From: Hahella ganghwensis DSM 17046
GTDB lineage: Bacteria; Pseudomonadota; Gammaproteobacteria; Pseudomonadales; Oleiphilaceae
Reading direction: 5' to 3'
NCBI RefSeq assembly: GCF_000376785.1
Contig: NZ_AQXX01000105.1
Location: 1 to 59,549, forward strand
Length of the DNA: 59,549 nucleotides
The first letter of the stretch is position 1; every line of letters begins with the position of its first letter. Below the pieces are notes generated by a model. The model ran no database searches. It saw only the letters and a program-made list of their open reading frames with translations, and had not been told where the DNA came from. Positions 872 to 37,569 of this stretch are shown here, piece by piece. Made by a program: the position numbers and the translations under genes.

Positions 872-2491
872 CTATGGCTTTCCCTTTAGCGGTATATCCT
901 TCAGCTCAATATCAAATCGCTGCAACCAGGACTTAATTCGATGCGTATCATTCATCTGTTTACGGCGTAGCCGGGACTTCTCGAAAAGTTTTCGGCTGGC
1001 TTCCGCATAGGAAGATGATTGCCTAATGGTATCAACGACCAACTTCAAGGCATGCAGATCGATTGAATCCATATGACCAAGGATGTCTCGGCCGAGACAA
1101 TCCAAAGAATCCTTTTCAGATGAGTCTTTCCACTCTCCAACATCCCCATACCATATGGCTTTCAGCCTGGAAATTTCCCTCTCTACATCATCCGTTCGAA
1201 TCACGCCACCATCAGACAATGTGGTCATTCGCCTGACACTGGCGATCAAATCCCGAAAATTTCCAGTCCATAAGGATTCAGGCCGAGAAGCAAATTCGAC
1301 AAAGCGTTTCCGTGCATCAGGAGCAATTCGAAATCGTTGCTCAAGCGTCCGGCTAACCTGATCGAGCTCATAATCCAGGTTAGGTTCCAAGTCTTCCAGT
1401 CGCTCCTTTAATCCTGGCAACGTGAAAGTCCATAAATTGATCCTCGCCAGCAAATCTTCCCTAAATACGCCTTGTCGACATGACTCACGAAGGTCACGAT
1501 TAGTCCCCGCAATCAACTGGAAACGACTCTCCTGTAACCGGTCACTCCCCATAGGATAAAACGACTGATTTTCGATCGCAGACAGCAGCATGGCCTGCTC
1601 CTCCAAACCTAATTCCCCTATTTCATCCAGAAACAGCAGTCCATTATCCGCTCTCTGCAGTAACCCTTCCCGGCTTTCCAAAGCTCCGGTAAATGCCCCC
1701 TTCCTATGCCCAAACAATGCTGACATAGCATTGTCCCCCATCAGGGTGGCGCAATTGACTTCTACATAGTCGCCGCTGATTTGCGCAGTTTTGTGTTTTA
1801 ACGCATAAATTCGCCGGGCAAGGTCTGATTTTCCTGCACCAGTGGGCCCCATTAGCAAAATGGGATAAGGGCTACGCCGGCTGATAATCTCCAATTCCTC
1901 GATCATCTGATTAAACTTCAGATTTAGCGTTGGAATTCCCCTTTTAAGATCGTTTTCTTCTGCTTCTTTCTGCCGACGTACCCGTTCTGCAACGGCATCG
2001 TATTTGGAAAGATCCAGATCAATCACCTGAAACCTGGCCACCCCGCCTTTTTCCCCCGGCGCGGTTTGAAGAATTTTTCCCGGAAAATAACGTCCTTCCA
2101 CCAACTTATAGATACAGATCTGCTGAATATGCGTGCCAGTGGTGATGTGGAACAGATATTCATAGTCCGATCTGAAGGTTGCGGCTTCCTTCTCAACGAA
2201 ATCCACCAGCGTCAAATGTACCTCGGCCAGCTCCCAGGGATCTCCGAACTTCACCTGATGAAGGCTGACACTGATATCGCTATTCAATTGCTCTATATCC
2301 TCTTTGACTTCCTCCGCCAGCAACTGCTCGTTGTCATAAAGAAGATGAATCTGTGTAACCCCAGCCATCTGCGCCAGCGACACCGTTGGCCGCCAACGTC
2401 GTTCAAACCGCTTCTCATAAGCTCCGCGACGCTTGGAAGCTCGATCCAGTCGCTGACCGACAATCGAATAGATAACTTTGGGGAATGTCAT
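872..2491 (-). CDS. rtcR: RtcR, sigma-54-dependent activator of RNA repair genes
   Basis: Codes for 539 residues, the normal RtcR length (~530). Residues 1-180 form the CARF-type sensor (starts MTFPKVIYSIVGQRLDRA), which in characterised RtcR proteins senses tRNA fragments with 2',3'-cyclic phosphate ends. Residues ~185-430 form the AAA+ sigma-54 activation domain with Walker A GPTGAGKS, the sigma-54-contacting GAFTGA loop (in KGAFTGALESREG) and Walker B GLLFLDEIGE. The last ~100 residues hold a helical DNA-binding part. In Escherichia coli and Salmonella rtcR is divergent from rtcBA or rsr-rtcBA. Here it is divergent from a sigma-54 promoter that leads into a tRNA array; rtcB and rtcA are not in the window. 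All key activator motifs look intact, so the protein should be functional. Confidence 0.95.
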   Translation of the reverse strand: MTFPKVIYSIVGQRLDRASKRRGAYEKRFERRWRPTVSLAQMAGVTQIHLLYDNEQLLAEEVKEDIEQLNSDISVSLHQVKFGDPWELAEVHLTLVDFVEKEAATFRSDYEYLFHITTGTHIQQICIYKLVEGRYFPGKILQTAPGEKGGVARFQVIDLDLSKYDAVAERVRRQKEAEENDLKRGIPTLNLKFNQMIEELEIISRRSPYPILLMGPTGAGKSDLARRIYALKHKTAQISGDYVEVNCATLMGDNAMSALFGHRKGAFTGALESREGLLQRADNGLLFLDEIGELGLEEQAMLLSAIENQSFYPMGSDRLQESRFQLIAGTNRDLRESCRQGVFREDLLARINLWTFTLPGLKERLEDLEPNLDYELDQVSRTLEQRFRIAPDARKRFVEFASRPESLWTGNFRDLIASVRRMTTLSDGGVIRTDDVEREISRLKAIWYGDVGEWKDSSEKDSLDCLGRDILGHMDSIDLHALKLVVDTIRQSSSYAEASRKLFEKSRLRRKQMNDTHRIKSWLQRFDIELKDIPLKGKP

Positions 2492-2695
2492 TGAAATTTA
2501 CACCTGCAGATAAACAGTTATCGAAAATTTGTCCCATTAATCACACATGACAGATTTCAGCATGATACTCATCCAATTAAAAACTATCAAAATATATAGT
2601 GAAAACCATTAATTCTATTTAAAAAGATAAATAACTTTGCTTTCGTATTATAAAATCATCCGCCAATCTCTTTTATTTAGACGTTTCCACAAAGC

Positions 2696-2711
2696 TGGCA
2701 CGGTGCATGCA
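2696..2711 (+). promoter_or_regulatory. Sigma-54 promoter facing the tRNA array
   Basis: TGGCACGGTGCATGCA matches the -24/-12 consensus TGGCACG-N4-TTGCW in all but one position, with the invariant GG (2697-2698) and GC (2709-2710) separated by exactly ten bases. The orientation is away from rtcR, so transcription would begin near 2722-2724 and run toward the tRNAs. The AT-rich 204 bases between it and rtcR (2492-2695) are the expected place for RtcR enhancer sites, but I could not identify a clear palindrome there. The motif is seen directly; its use by RtcR is inferred from position. Confidence 0.87.
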
Positions 2712-2794
2712 TACTTATATAACAACTAATACAGAAAGGCTGCTATTCAGCAAAGAGATATAGCCGACTGTTTTTCATTATTTTGGGATTCAAC

Positions 2795-2959
2795 ATGAGA
2801 CACGATCTTTCTACAACATATTGGCCAGCAGACAATAAAGGTGAACATCGCCTCTATGCCTACGGCCTGCGTGCGCTCAATAAGAGCACCGAACAATCGT
2901 GTCATCTGAACCTCATTGCCAACCATGGCATACAGAGCAAATTTATAGGACCTTCCTGA
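2795..2959 (+). CDS. Possible 54-residue leader protein, unrecognised
   Basis: The first ATG after the predicted sigma-54 start opens a 54-codon frame beginning MRHDLSTTYWPADNKGEHRL and ending in a TGA at 2957-2959. The ribosome binding site is weak (TTGGGA about 9 bases upstream). I do not recognise the protein, and it contains no motif of RtcA, RtcB, Rsr or a slipin. It could be a decayed fragment of a larger gene, a leader peptide, or chance. Listed because it fills most of the otherwise unexplained leader. Confidence 0.3.
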   Translation: MRHDLSTTYWPADNKGEHRLYAYGLRALNKSTEQSCHLNLIANHGIQSKFIGPS

Positions 2960-2967
2960 ATTAACGT

Positions 2968-2991
2968 CTGGAGGGTCAACATGCCCTCCAG
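2968..2991 (+). other. Perfect 8-bp hairpin in the tRNA-array leader
   Basis: CTGGAGGG and CCCTCCAG flank an 8-base loop. It begins nine bases after the stop of the small leader frame and precedes the terminator-like hairpin at 3012. No poly-T follows, so it is not itself a terminator; it may be a processing or regulatory structure. Confidence 0.55.
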
Positions 2992-3011
2992 GATATCTGC
3001 ATATAACCGGA

Positions 3012-3046
3012 AACCTGGTGGGCTTTAACAGACACCAGGTTTTTTT
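3012..3046 (+). terminator. Terminator-like hairpin between the sigma-54 promoter and the first tRNA
   Basis: AACCTGGTG pairs with CACCAGGTT around a 12-base loop and is followed by a run of T (3040-3046), the form of a Rho-independent terminator read on the plus strand. It lies about 290 bases after the predicted sigma-54 start and 66 bases before tRNA-Tyr. Either it ends a separate short RNA, or it attenuates the tRNA transcript, or it is read through. Confidence 0.75.
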
Positions 3047-3088
3047 GTGCCCGAACAACCGTGATAGGAAGGTCACGGATTTGGGCAC
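3047..3088 (+). other. Nested stem structure just before the tRNA array
   Basis: An outer stem GTGCCC (3047-3052) with GGGCAC (3083-3088) encloses an inner stem CCGTGA (3059-3064) with TCACGG (3073-3078). It starts directly after the T-run of the terminator-like hairpin and ends 24 bases before tRNA-Tyr. Both stems are perfect. It could be a 5' processing structure or part of an antitermination switch; the function is unknown. Confidence 0.5.
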
Positions 3089-3112
3089 ACCCCGAATAAC
3101 TAAACTAGATTT

Positions 3113-3195
3113 GGATGGGCTGTCGATGGTGAGACAAGCAGACTGTAAATCTGTGGCCGAAAACTGCGGCGGTTCGAATCCGCCCCCATCCACCA
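3113..3195 (+). tRNA. tRNA-Tyr (GTA)
   Basis: Acceptor stem GGATGGG/CCCATCC with A73 and an encoded CCA. D arm GTC/GAC with GG in the loop, anticodon loop CTGTAAA, T arm GGCGG/CCGCC with TTCGAAT. The variable region is 13 bases, as expected for a class II tyrosine tRNA. First tRNA of the array; 16 bases separate it from tRNA-Ser. Tyrosine tRNA is a known target of colicin E5-type nucleases. Confidence 0.9.
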
Positions 3196-3211
3196 AATAA
3201 ATGATGCACAA

Positions 3212-3298
3212 GGTAGGTTGACAGAGTGGTAATGCACCGGATTGCTAATCCGGCGTCTTATAGGAGGCGCGTTGGTTCGAATCCAACACCTACCGCCA
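3212..3298 (+). tRNA. tRNA-Ser (GCT)
   Basis: Acceptor GGTAGGT/ACCTACC with discriminator G73 and encoded CCA; anticodon stem CCGGA/TCCGG with loop TTGCTAA. A long variable arm (GTCT...AGGC) is typical of serine tRNAs. The D stem is weak, with one mismatch. The T loop is the standard TTCGAAT. Confidence 0.9.
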
Positions 3299-3313
3299 AA
3301 ATTGATTAATCGT

Positions 3314-3390
3314 GGTCCTGTCGCTTAACAGGTTAAAGCACCGGCCTCATAAGCCGGCAGATGCAGGTTCGAATCCCGCCGGGACCACCA
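3314..3390 (+). tRNA. tRNA with CAT anticodon (Met elongator or Ile2)
   Basis: Acceptor GGTCCTG/CGGGACC (one G-U pair), A73 and encoded CCA; D arm GCTT/AAGC; anticodon stem CCGGC/GCCGG with loop CTCATAA. The three consecutive G-C pairs of an initiator are absent, so it is an elongator methionine tRNA or a lysidine-modified isoleucine tRNA. The T stem GCAGG/CCCGC contains an A-C mismatch at its third pair, unusual for a housekeeping tRNA. Confidence 0.82.
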
Positions 3391-3399
3391 ACAATTTTT

Positions 3400-3475
3400 G
3401 GGTCGATAGCTCAAATGGCAGAGCAAGGGCCTTTTAAGCCCGAGGTTGAGGGTTCAATCCCCTCTCGACCCACCA
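3400..3475 (+). tRNA. tRNA-Lys (TTT)
   Basis: A canonical cloverleaf: acceptor GGGTCGA/TCGACCC with A73 and CCA, D arm GCTC/GAGC, anticodon stem AGGGC/GCCCG with loop CTTTTAA, T arm GAGGG/CCCTC. Lysine tRNA with the UUU anticodon is the classical substrate of the PrrC anticodon nuclease. Nine bases after the CAT tRNA. Confidence 0.93.
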
Positions 3476-3481
3476 GATTGT

Positions 3482-3557
3482 TCCGGAATAGCTCAGTAGG
3501 TAGAGCGGACGGCTGTTAACCGCCAGGTCACAGGTTCGACCCCTGTTTCCGGAGCCA
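3482..3557 (+). tRNA. tRNA-Asn (GTT)
   Basis: Acceptor TCCGGAA/TTCCGGA with G73 and CCA, D arm GCTC/GAGC, anticodon stem ACGGC/GCCGC region with loop CTGTTAA, T arm ACAGG/CCTGT. U1-A72 with G73 fits bacterial asparagine tRNAs. Only six bases separate it from tRNA-Lys, which implies one shared transcript. Confidence 0.93.
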
Positions 3558-3562
3558 GAATC

Positions 3563-3638
3563 GAGGGTTTGGCCGAAAGGTGAAGGCGCAAGACTGCAAC
3601 TCTTGTATTTGCCAGTTCGAATCTGGCAACCCTCTCCA
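3563..3638 (+). tRNA. tRNA-Cys (GCA)
   Basis: Acceptor GAGGGTT/AACCCTC with discriminator U73, a cysteine identity element, and encoded CCA; D arm GCC/GGC; anticodon stem CAAGA/TCTTG with loop CTGCAAC; T arm GCCAG/CTGGC. Its 3' end is part of a perfect hairpin, CTCCAAT-TTTT-ATTGGAG (3634-3651), which hides the CCA in the precursor and may influence 3' processing. Confidence 0.92.
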
Positions 3639-3674
3639 ATTTTTATTGGAGCAAGTGTAAAGAACCAAGGATTT

Positions 3675-3750
3675 ACCCGTGTAGCTCAGCGAACAGAGCG
3701 TAGGTCTACGAAACCTGAGGTCGATGGTTTGAATCCATCCATGGGTACCA
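3675..3750 (+). tRNA. tRNA-Arg (ACG) with altered elbow pair
   Basis: Acceptor ACCCGTG/CATGGGT (one G-U), A73 and CCA; anticodon stem TAGGT/ACCTG with loop CTACGAA; T arm GATGG/CCATC. The T loop is TTTGAAT, so the near-universal C56 is T. The D loop AGCGAACA has GA where GG (18-19) is expected. The two changes match: G19-C56 becomes A19-U56, which preserves the elbow base pair. A34 would need TadA deamination to inosine. Confidence 0.88.
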
Positions 3751-3763
3751 GATTGATATTAAC

Positions 3764-3840
3764 GCGCAAGTGACGGAACAGGCATACGTACTGGTCTTAG
3801 AAACCAGGTTTTAAGGGTTCGACTCCCTTCTTGCGCACCA
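3764..3840 (+). tRNA. tRNA-Leu (TAG) without a long variable arm
   Basis: Acceptor GCGCAAG/CTTGCGC with A73 and CCA; D arm ACG/CGT with a leucine-like loop GAACAGGCATA; anticodon stem CTGGT/ACCAG with loop CTTAGAA; T arm AAGGG/CCCTT. Bacterial leucine tRNAs are class II with a variable arm of about 12-16 bases, but here the variable region is only GTTTT. The D arm still looks like a leucine tRNA, suggesting the arm was lost. Charging by LeuRS is uncertain. Confidence 0.85.
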
Positions 3841-3894
3841 TTTTAAAAACAGTAACGCTTTTAACTATACAAGAAAGTTTACAAAAGTGTTTAT

Positions 3895-3970
3895 TGGCCG
3901 CTGGCGCAATTGGCAGCGCATCTGACTTTGACTCAGAGGGTTTCCGGTTCAAATCCGGAGCGGCCAGCCA
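3895..3970 (+). tRNA. tRNA-Gln (TTG)
   Basis: Acceptor TGGCCGC/GCGGCCA with G73 and CCA, the U1-A72 pair being typical of glutamine tRNAs; D arm GCGC/GCGC; anticodon stem TCTGA/TCAGA with loop CTTTGAC; T arm TCCGG/CCGGA. Preceded by a 54-base AT-rich gap, the longest in the array, in which I see no promoter. Confidence 0.92.
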
Positions 3971-3976
3971 TTAAGT

Positions 3977-4312
3977 GGTGATCATTAGGGCCTGCTGACA
4001 CTTCGTGTGACGATCATGTTGAGCCTGAGAATAGGTCAATCGCGGCACAAGGAGAGACGTTTAGTTATTCTAAACGAACGACGAGTAACAAAGAGTGCCC
4101 TATTCTCAGGCTCAACCCGCAGGGCTGGGCCTCATTTTGCCCTCTACGGCATTGTCGGTCGCTTATGTAGATGACTACACCGCGCTCCCTCCTCTTTGCA
4201 GAAGGTAAAATGAGACTCCAGCATGATTGTCACACGAAGTGTCAGCAGGCCCGTGGCAGAGCGCCAGGTTGTGGCCCTGGAGATACGAGTTCGATCCTCG
4301 TTGATCACCCCA
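3977..4312 (+). pseudogene. tRNA-His (GTG) split by a MITE in the D arm
   Basis: The 5' part (3977-3987) supplies G-1 and acceptor GTGATCA; the 3' part (4253-4312) supplies the rest: D-stem 3' strand GAGC, anticodon stem CCAGG/CCTGG with loop TTGTGGC, T arm ACGAG/CTCGT, acceptor TGATCAC, C73 and CCA. G-1 opposite C73 is the histidine identity element. The two halves are separated by 265 bases with long terminal inverted repeats. The 5' strand of the D stem (expected GCTC) is not visible, so even precise removal of the repeat unit would not give a complete gene. Probably inactive. Confidence 0.85.
3988..4252. mobile_element. MITE copy 1, inside tRNA-His
   Basis: The terminal inverted repeats at 3988-4011 and 4229-4252 match perfectly over 24 bases and, after one mismatch, continue for six more. 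A second inverted repeat is nested inside (4018-4035 against 4098-4116). No transposase is encoded. The right half (about 4117-4225) is clearly related to the inner part of the repeat at 37381-37569. No target duplication is obvious. It could be mobilised in trans by a related transposase. Confidence 0.85.
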
Positions 4313-4382
4313 AATTTTATTTTCCATCAACTAACACGATTCACTTATATACTTATAGAAACAGCCATTCGAGGGCTTGGCT

Positions 4383-4937
4383 ATGATGATGAAACACCCC
4401 TTAATTTTAAAAATCACTGCTGGAGGGCAACCTCAGAGCTGGCTGACCGTCCATCAAGCGGCACAGCATCTGGTTGCCGGTAGGGTCGCCTGGTCATTTG
4501 GCGACACCGGCATCATTCTGAAAGGGGGCTTCAATAAAGTCGGCCTTCAATCCAGCCTGGGCATACCCGCCATACTGGCCAGTAAAAGTGACCACGCCCG
4601 TATCGCTCACTCAGTGCCATTCACCCGGCAAAACCTGTTCGCCAGGGACCGCTTTACCTGCATGTATTGTGGAAATAAACCATCTGAACGAGCTTTAACG
4701 ATCGACCATATCATCCCGACCAGCCGGGGTGGTCGGCACTCCTGGATGAACACTTGCGCCTGTTGTTTTGGCTGTAACCAGCGTAAGGCTGCATTAACAC
4801 CAGAAGAGGCTGGAATGGCATTATTGTCGGTGCCTTATGTGCCTAACAGGTACGAATACATGTACCTGCGCAATAGATATGTTCTGACAGATCAGATGGA
4901 TTACTTATCCAAGGGTTTTCGAAACTTCGTTGCCTGA
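4383..4937 (+). CDS. HNH endonuclease-like protein at the end of the tRNA array
   Basis: Codes for about 184 residues. The C-terminal half is an HNH/McrA-type nuclease fold: zinc knuckle pairs CMYCGN and CFGCNQRK surround the catalytic segment LTIDHIIPTSRGGRHSWMN, with the His-Asn-His/Lys elements present. The N-terminal ~85 residues are not recognised by me. I chose the first of three consecutive ATG codons (4383, 4386, 4389) because GAGGG at 4371-4375 lies seven bases before it; an in-frame TTG at 4377 sits too close. The gene begins 70 bases after the tRNA-His 3' end on the same strand, with no clear terminator between, so it may belong to the same transcript. Whether it acts on DNA or RNA cannot be told. 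Confidence 0.85.
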   Translation: MMMKHPLILKITAGGQPQSWLTVHQAAQHLVAGRVAWSFGDTGIILKGGFNKVGLQSSLGIPAILASKSDHARIAHSVPFTRQNLFARDRFTCMYCGNKPSERALTIDHIIPTSRGGRHSWMNTCACCFGCNQRKAALTPEEAGMALLSVPYVPNRYEYMYLRNRYVLTDQMDYLSKGFRNFVA

Positions 4938-4996
4938 CCATCAACACTTGCAAGACCAACAACATTTGCAAAACCAGCAATATCAGTAAAACCAAA

Positions 4997-5032
4997 CCAG
5001 TAAGTGACAAAGTCTTCCTTGAATCTTACTGG
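4997..5032 (+). terminator. Possible terminator after the HNH gene
   Basis: CCAGTAAG (4997-5004) pairs with CTTACTGG (5025-5032) across a 20-base loop, followed by a T-rich but interrupted stretch. It lies 60 bases after the HNH stop and may end the tRNA-HNH transcript; being symmetrical it could also serve the opposite strand. Confidence 0.5.
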
Positions 5033-5114
5033 CTTTCCATTTTCTCGGCTTACTGAAAAAATTCAATCGCCTGTTGCCCCCCCTTCTATCGAGAGACCTT
5101 CCGCTTAGAGCAGA

Positions 5115-37380: not shown

Positions 37381-37569
37381 GTTTGTTGACGTTTCATATG
37401 ATGCTCATGCTGGAGCCACATTTCGTTCTCTGCAAAGCGTAGAGAGTGCAGTGTAGTCACTCTACGTAAGCGATCAACAATGCCGCAAGGGGGCAAAATG
37501 AAGCCCAGCCTTGCTGGCTGGTGCCCCTTTTGAGGTTCAACATGTGCATCATATGAAACGTCAACAGAC
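37381..37569. mobile_element. MITE copy 2, upstream of the toxin gene
   Basis: The terminal inverted repeats (37381-37403 and 37547-37569) are 23 bases with one mismatch. Read on the minus strand, the interior aligns with the right half of MITE copy 1, including blocks around CATTTTGCCC, GCGGCATTG and CTTTGCAGA. The terminal repeats differ from copy 1 mainly by transitions, with matching changes on both sides. It lies 53 bases before the toxin start and could carry or disrupt promoter elements. Confidence 0.85.

Follow-up and report, generated by a model that had tools for sequence, protein, structure and literature searches.

Contig 105 of the 6.56-Mb genome of Hahella ganghwensis DSM 17046, which we analysed over its whole length of 59,549 nt (the window), carries an array of tRNA genes divergent from rtcR, the gene for an activator that combines a CARF domain with a sigma-54 AAA+ domain. 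rtcR lies on the minus strand (872–2491) as an intact open reading frame (ORF) of 539 aa. On the plus strand, a sigma-54 (−24/−12) promoter-like site (TGGCACGGTGCATGCA, 2696–2711) is followed by a leader ORF of 54 codons (2795–2959), a putative "test peptide", then by a predicted attenuator (2949–3046), the tRNA genes and an HNH nuclease gene (4377–4937). An earlier note on this DNA had listed an intact rtcR, a near-perfect divergent sigma-54 promoter, ten tRNA or tRNA-like genes and an HNH gene on the same strand. These parts were borne out, with one qualification for the tenth tRNA; the leader ORF and the attenuator had been overlooked.

The window RtcR matches the RtcR/CARF domain (PF06956, 169.2 bits against a cut-off of 23.1), fused to the sigma-54 AAA+ domain (PF00158, 151 bits), and scores 655.4 bits with the PADLOC RtcR model. 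Because its score with the NCBIfam RtcR equivalog (624.7 bits) lies below the cut-off of 650, we regard it as a divergent RtcR. It is 86% identical to the RtcR of the sister species (G004) and ~45–53% identical to the other full-length RtcRs listed. The promoter-like site agrees with the consensus at 11 of 12 positions, the best in the window, and was the only site at ≥10/12 in a scan of both strands (59.5 kb) that required the GG and GC pairs. As the earlier note had stated, no sigma-70 promoter for the array was evident: a consensus scan of 2300–5100 gave two sigma-70-like sites, both on the minus strand. Further upstream, inverted repeats rich in AT (2582–2640), partly retained in G004, are a possible RtcR binding site. 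Neither rtcB nor rtcA was found in a divergent or adjacent operon at the window locus; rtcBA lies at a separate locus of the genome with a second rtcR, and rtcB occurs at C138 (beside the second rtcR) and C144. The second rtcR has, divergent from it, a tRNA-Lys-like gene lacking CCA (L061:5674–5748) that recalls the "mutant tRNA" of Pelobacter. YrlA-type Y RNA (RF02553) gave no Rfam match in the window at the gathering score.

Nine intact tRNA genes, each called by ARAGORN and Rfam, lie on the plus strand between 3113 and 3970, with the spacing of 5–54 bases that had been noted: tRNA-Tyr(GTA) (3113–3195), tRNA-Ser(GCT) (3212–3298), tRNA-Met(CAT) (3314–3390), tRNA-Lys(TTT) (3400–3475), tRNA-Asn(GTT) (3482–3557), tRNA-Cys(GCA) (3563–3638), tRNA-Arg(ACG) (3675–3750), tRNA-Leu(TAG) (3764–3840) and tRNA-Gln(TTG) (3895–3970). 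The tenth, tRNA-His(GTG) (3977–4312, plus strand), is whole in G004 and here is split by a repeat element (~3986–4252). This element has inverted ends; the genome holds eight further copies, all partial and diverged, including one in the window (37384–37520). The tRNA-Leu, at 77 nt, lacks the long variable arm usual in bacterial tRNA-Leu; the arrays of loci L276 and L382 likewise contain Leu(TAG) genes, 79 and 77 nt long.

By sequence, the array tRNAs look functional. All nine anticodons are also present outside the array (42 other distinct tRNA sequences of the genome compared), but identity to the nearest housekeeping tRNA with that anticodon is only 61–76%. The genes encode CCA ends, and the discriminator base equals that of the housekeeping partner in eight of nine, the exception being Arg (A, not G). 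The anticodon loops of the Tyr, Asn, Lys, Arg and Cys tRNAs are identical to those of the host, so these five should be cut and charged as the host's are. Between the window and G004 the nine tRNAs are 93–100% identical, whereas the eight spacers between tRNAs are 42–83% identical, five of them ≤53%; since the tRNAs are so much better conserved than the spacers, we read the tRNAs as being under purifying selection.

Leader ORF and predicted attenuator

Alignment of the window with G004 revealed a conserved leader before the first tRNA, in which the frame of the ORF is kept despite two indels. Among the 53 codons that align, 6 show a synonymous change and 26 a change of another kind, which leaves the peptide itself without strong conservation. 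Downstream of the ORF lie two hairpins, the second followed by seven U. Five segments can be distinguished on the plus strand: A (2949–2956), formed by the final leader codons just 5′ of the stop (2957–2959); B (2970–2977), which begins ~10 nt past the stop and pairs with A or C; C (2983–2992), which pairs with B or D; D (3012–3023), which pairs with C or, as the terminator 5′ arm, with E; and E with the U-run (3033–3046), the terminator 3′ arm. In folding predictions, RNA that stops short of the terminator 3′ arm forms A:B and C:D, and the full RNA forms B:C and the terminator D:E. Folding and covariation thus point to a mutually exclusive antiterminator and terminator. The same leader and attenuator plan precedes a different array in other Hahella genomes (array C, below), whose RtcR is about half identical to that of the window, and the array of L302 outside the genus; further attenuator copies precede the tRNA/HNH units of L077, L276, L283, L284, L285 and L080.

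By inspection, A:B and C:D formed before the terminator in 21 of 23 leaders, near relatives among them (median z −3.8, weakest −2.1, relative to dinucleotide shuffles); L077a was judged by eye to fold in this way. Covariation was scored on 11 sequences, some of them close relatives, against 500 shuffles. B:C and D:E together were 93.3% paired with both-side changes at 6 of 15 pairs, and no shuffle matched the covariation score; C:D was 84.9% paired with both-side changes at 3 of 8 pairs, its score being matched by 9 of 500 shuffles. On these weaker figures, the antiterminator is less well supported by covariation than the terminator state. Several leaders also match the Rfam His_leader family (RF00514) below threshold, at best with 46.0 bits against a cut-off of 49.

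Across the leaders, segment A lies in the last codons or within ~14 nt after the stop, and B starts ~10–18 nt past it. A ribosome at a stop codon shields ~10 nt beyond. In that position it would mask A largely or completely while B stayed accessible, giving B:C, D:E and termination, whereas a ribosome stalled earlier would allow A:B, C:D and readthrough. We infer that at these loci completion of the leader means off and stalling means on. A four-segment, trp-like attenuator, in which completion would mean on, was set aside because of the A:B and C:D fold in 21 of 23 leaders and the position of A at the stop codon.

We compared the codons of the leaders with the arrays that they precede. Each leader ORF was taken from an ATG to a stop at the conserved place before segment B, and ORFs of ≥250 codons from the same locus served as background (525 to 14,912 codons). 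Leaders with an unsure start or no tRNA were excluded (L276b, L077b, L283–L285, L374, L376a and HNH-only leaders), and the L077a array was counted as Asn, His and Gly, omitting a tRNA-Ile(AAT) call. Codons read by the array's own tRNAs exceeded the local background in nine of ten leaders with detected arrays (one-sided binomial p = 8.5 × 10⁻⁶ for L302, 3.9 × 10⁻⁴ for L378, 0.0016 for L276a, 0.0055 for L376, 0.009 for G004, 0.02 for L077a, 0.055 for L342, 0.074 for the window, 0.091 for L073 and 0.73 for L382); the ten include the related pairs window/G004, L073/L342 and L378/L376, and the test was not blind, some leader peptides having been known before it was written. When leaders and arrays were permuted among six groups (window, L073, L302, L276a, L378 and L077a; L382, G004, L342 and L376 excluded), the true pairing ranked 2 of 720. 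Every amino acid of the array was present in the leader in nine of ten cases; the window leader has no internal Met. Over the leader set, the match between leader and array codons is good evidence, and in the window alone it is weak.

Recurrence of the array and of the attenuator

The linkage of rtcR to a tRNA array recurs in other genomes. In a genus sample of the window's own genome (G000) and six others, RtcR was present in all seven and a multi-tRNA array lay beside rtcR in six, with three different tRNA sets. Array A (Tyr Ser Met Lys Asn Cys Arg Leu Gln His) is found in G000 and G004, and array B (Met Cys Glu) in G001, G002, G005 and G006. Array C (Ser Ser Asp Leu Trp Gln) lies beside rtcR in G002, which thus has both B and C, and in G005; in G001 and G006 it is displaced from rtcR by ~36 kb and ~7 kb, each time preceded by its own sigma-54-like site. 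In G006 (L342), promoter, leader and attenuator are duplicated, with one copy at rtcR lacking tRNAs and a diverged copy heading the displaced array; G001 (L072/L341) likewise has both promoter copies. In the remaining genome, G003, two tRNA-like calls adjoin an rtcR–rtcB locus.

Outside the genus, an array is divergent from rtcR in G547 (L302), tRNAs lie downstream of rtcB–rtcA in G548 (L276) and G051 (L077), and an alphaproteobacterial metagenome-assembled genome (L121) has five tRNAs between promoter and rtcB. The earlier description of an array "instead of rtcBA" accordingly holds at the window locus and fails at L077 and L276. Within the L302 array, a GOLLD giant RNA (RF02032, 180.7 bits, L302:3767–4230) encloses tRNA-Ile.

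ARAGORN found a tRNA on the divergent strand within 5 kb at 34 of 111 RtcR loci, a count that includes single tRNA-like genes and near relatives, compared with 1 of 57 control ORFs encoding other sigma-54 activators; the mean flank was 4.7 kb for RtcR loci, some of which have little flank, and 4.1 kb for controls. Single "tRNA" calls beside rtcR at ten loci (L061, L067, L282, L274, L279, L286, L291, L185, L108 and L098) were dropped as support for arrays and are still counted within the 34. The L061 call lacks a CCA end, several of the others are tandem or have an unclear anticodon, and as a group they look like YrlA-type or Pelobacter-type tRNA-like RNAs; L061, the only one of them searched against Rfam with a permissive threshold, did not match YrlA.

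A quick tree covered 109 RtcRs (two of the 111 were excluded for length). In it, the 11 proteins of arrays without rtcB fell in one group of 15 with 98% support in the Shimodaira–Hasegawa-like approximate likelihood ratio test, together with three loci of rtcB and tRNA-Met (L297–L299) and one attenuator–HNH locus (L080). The array-without-rtcB state requires two changes on this tree, on which a long branch leads to the window/G004 pair; RtcRs from L276, L077 and L121, where tRNAs accompany rtcB, fall elsewhere. Three further rtcR genes (L262, L263 and L264) lie on contigs filed as viral, with no tRNA seen in the available flank, and a viral pattern scan returned eight stretches, none with an ARAGORN tRNA.

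The attenuator also occurs apart from rtcR. We searched 351 genomes of the order with a covariance model of B:C and D:E, whose match in the window, a training member, spans 2970–3049 (71.8 bits). At E up to 0.05 the model matched in 116 of the 351 genomes, matches below 41 bits not being counted. Nine matches above 50 bits lay outside the training set, six of them before tRNA or HNH genes. The attenuator precedes Cys, Lys, Gly, Asn and His tRNAs in G547 (contig 48), Lys, Gly, Asn, Thr and His tRNAs in G723 (contig 39), and a tRNA-Lys followed by the contig end in G669 (contig 55), a relative of G723; in G524, G436 and G497 it precedes HNH with no tRNA detected. Weaker matches in G470 (42.1 bits) and G549 (41.8 bits) also precede HNH, which in G549 follows Leu and Lys tRNAs. 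Of six matches below 41 bits that were inspected, three (L384–L386) look like ordinary terminators, and the other three (L383, L387 and L388) are similarly shaped attenuators that precede transporter-like genes, as does L375 at 58.2 bits; "transporter-like" is here a reading of the sequence without family search. No sigma-54-like site scoring ≥8 was found in the 900 bases upstream of the model-found tRNA/HNH loci; behind an RtcR-type promoter, the attenuator–tRNA/HNH module is found in Hahella arrays A and C and in L302.

The HNH protein encoded in the window is full length; in an alignment of 11 members, every one keeps its C-x2-C pairs, D110-H111 and N125/N134. HNH genes recur within or at the end of arrays (the window, G004, array C of G001, G002, G005 and G006, L276, L077 and G549) and, at other loci, follow attenuators where no tRNA was detected; none lies beside array B. 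Each of the seven genus genomes has two strong HNH copies, one of which is the array's copy in six; around the second copy of the window genome, no ARAGORN tRNA was found within the 16 kb fetched. The protein resembles phage HNH families, best phrog_16726 (E = 4 × 10⁻²⁴), and it may serve either as an effector that cuts DNA or RNA or as an enzyme of processing. On the far side of the locus, convergent with rtcR, lies the C-terminal half of an ADP-ribosylglycohydrolase (215–847; profile positions 152–286 of 287), and the sequence ahead of it (1–190) resembles, by eye, the edge of an insertion sequence.

Predicted control of the array and competing readings

The earlier note had interpreted the locus as a damage-inducible tRNA reserve. 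As a reading of the promoter this remains the best one, because arrays recur beside rtcR with sigma-54-like sites, those without rtcB associate with one RtcR group, and rtcBA lies elsewhere; what it had not foreseen is a leader-peptide attenuator between promoter and tRNAs, owing to which RtcR activation alone should not suffice. We therefore favour, with moderate confidence, an inducible reserve tRNA operon under two serial controls, RtcR with sigma-54 and then leader attenuation. Control by RtcR is inferred from gene order, motif and recurrence, and the likely physiological trigger would be RNA cutting together with failed reading of leader codons. RtcR, presumably through CARF sensing of cut RNA ends, would activate the promoter at 2696–2711, and the transcript would first encode the 54-codon leader, rich in codons of the array's tRNAs, and then the five-segment attenuator. 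If the leader is finished, the ribosome at the stop would cover A, B and C would pair, and the D:E terminator would switch the operon off. If the ribosome stalls because a cognate tRNA is cut, uncharged or scarce, A:B and C:D would form, and polymerase would enter the tRNA and HNH genes.

Several observations weigh against this reading. In the sister species G004 the −24 box is intact and the −12 box non-canonical, and array B has no attenuator, its first tRNA lying ~90 bp past the sigma-54 site. In two leaders, L376a and L374a, B:C is the fold predicted ahead of the terminator. The number of pairs with both-side changes was matched by 25 of 500 shuffles for B:C/D:E and by 206 of 500 for C:D, and the pair types by 444 and 480 of 500, respectively. 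In the window leader alone, 23 of 53 codons are cognate against an expected fraction of 0.33, a weak signal, and L382 shows no cognate-codon excess. Three of the nine model matches above 50 bits precede other ORFs (a second match on each of the G723 and G669 contigs and one before a transporter-like gene in G644), so RNAs of this shape are not confined to tRNA operons. Attenuators stand before HNH without detected tRNA at L283–L285, L377, L379, L380 and L080, and no RtcR or activator of the same family was found in the 10–19 kb examined at each of the model-found tRNA/HNH loci. Upstream of some attenuator–tRNA/HNH units we saw sigma-70-like boxes by eye. Such units behind sigma-70-like promoters imply that RtcR is one driver among others and that the module is wider than RtcR. 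Sigma-70-like boxes were also seen by eye between rtcA and the leader in L276, L077 and L283–L285; an arrangement of rtcB, rtcA, attenuator and tRNAs in this order suggests that replacement follows repair where needed, in units that seem to have their own promoter.

A stronger version of the serial-control reading is a closed loop of codon-specific tRNA replenishment, to which we give slightly less than an even chance. The leader would be a test message written in the array's own codons, RtcR would make the system an AND gate, and HNH would be a co-regulated effector of the same alarm; tRNAs would be made only when the leader test fails, and the test would be run only during RNA cutting. The competing view that comes closest is a general translation-stress switch, in which the attenuator would sense any ribosome stalling, for example by ribosome-targeting antibiotics, and the tRNAs would aid recovery without any tuning of codons. 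It would share its predicted polarity with PA5471.1–armZ, as described in the accessible part of that report (PMC13041342), and it would accommodate both the similar attenuators before transporter-like genes and the weak or absent codon match in the window and L382. The codon excess in nine of ten leaders and the rank of the true pairing among the permutations speak for tuned codons, and we consider an untuned switch unlikely.

The array tRNAs might instead be decoys, serving as bait for anticodon nucleases or as nuclease-resistant substitutes, as phage tRNAs can be. Tyr, His, Asn, Lys and Arg tRNAs are known nuclease targets, and all five are in the array set; the diverged tRNA bodies and the single tRNA-like RNAs adjoining other rtcR genes would also fit. 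Encoded CCA ends, housekeeping discriminator bases in all but one tRNA and host-like anticodon loops in Tyr, Asn, Lys, Arg and Cys suggest tRNAs that should be charged and cut as usual, and make a decoy role improbable. Least probable is a tRNA island from a phage or other mobile element that came to lie next to rtcR without being under its control: diverged tRNAs, a phage-like HNH, the GOLLD RNA around one L302 tRNA and the repeat that broke tRNA-His would suit such an origin, whereas the array is repeatedly linked to one RtcR group, displaced arrays keep their promoter, and the best phage and plasmid places span 13% and 20% of the array.

Comparison with known systems

Cells attacked by tRNA-cutting nucleases repair their tRNAs; to our knowledge, a dedicated route of tRNA replacement has been described only for the Anabaena trn operon, there for translational stress. 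If the serial-control reading is true, the locus would be a genetically defined tRNA replacement pathway tied to a damage sensor of the kind that also governs repair, which raises the question of an RtcR regulon reaching tRNA supply. The match between leader and array codons would then be a natural read-out of the tRNAs that these bacteria lose.

RtcR activation accompanies tRNA cleavage in Salmonella, according to the available parts of two reports, and the rsr–yrlBA–rtcBA operon there, like other RtcR-controlled rtcBA operons, also places a CARF-bearing RtcR divergent from a sigma-54 promoter (PMC7790460; PMC9879122). The window differs in its target, which is a CCA-ended tRNA array and not a ligase, cyclase, Ro60 or Y RNA, with rtcBA elsewhere. 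CoCoNuT defence operons likewise contain an RtcR homolog with a non-rtcBA target, proposed to respond to tRNA fragments, but the targets are protein-coding defence genes, and the accessible part of that report mentions no tRNA array (PMC11090510). In Pelobacter carbinolicus, a tRNA-derived "mutant tRNA" gene is divergent from rtcR and upstream of rtcA–rtcB; as far as the available text goes, it is a single gene with a buried CCA, in its authors' view perhaps non-working in translation, and no array (PMC3543383).

The Anabaena trn operon is a reserve tRNA array that stays silent during normal growth and is switched on under translational stress (PMC10272220). The window array resembles it in being redundant with housekeeping tRNAs, all nine of its anticodons being present elsewhere. 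In the portion of the Anabaena report at hand, by contrast, the array is repressed by the ribbon-helix-helix protein TrcR, no leader-peptide attenuator is mentioned, and RtcR is not found in that organism (PMC10272220).

For the attenuator, the nearest counterpart is PA5471.1–armZ of Pseudomonas aeruginosa, in which, according to the accessible part of the report, full translation of the leader forms the terminator, stalling gives readthrough, and a cca mutant, lacking the CCA-adding enzyme, induces the gene; there the promoter is constitutive, and what is controlled is a drug-response regulator instead of tRNA genes (PMC13041342). Leaders of the his type (RF00514) also combine a leader peptide with alternative hairpins, whereas in the window the control codons are spread over many tRNA species, the segments number five, the stop lies upstream of B, and completion is predicted to mean off. 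In the literature that we covered, mainly titles and the starts of abstracts with most subscription journals outside its scope, we found no report of an rtcR–tRNA array locus or of a tRNA operon under leader-peptide attenuation. Each ingredient has a known counterpart; what would be new is their combination in a tRNA operon that puts its own codons to the test.

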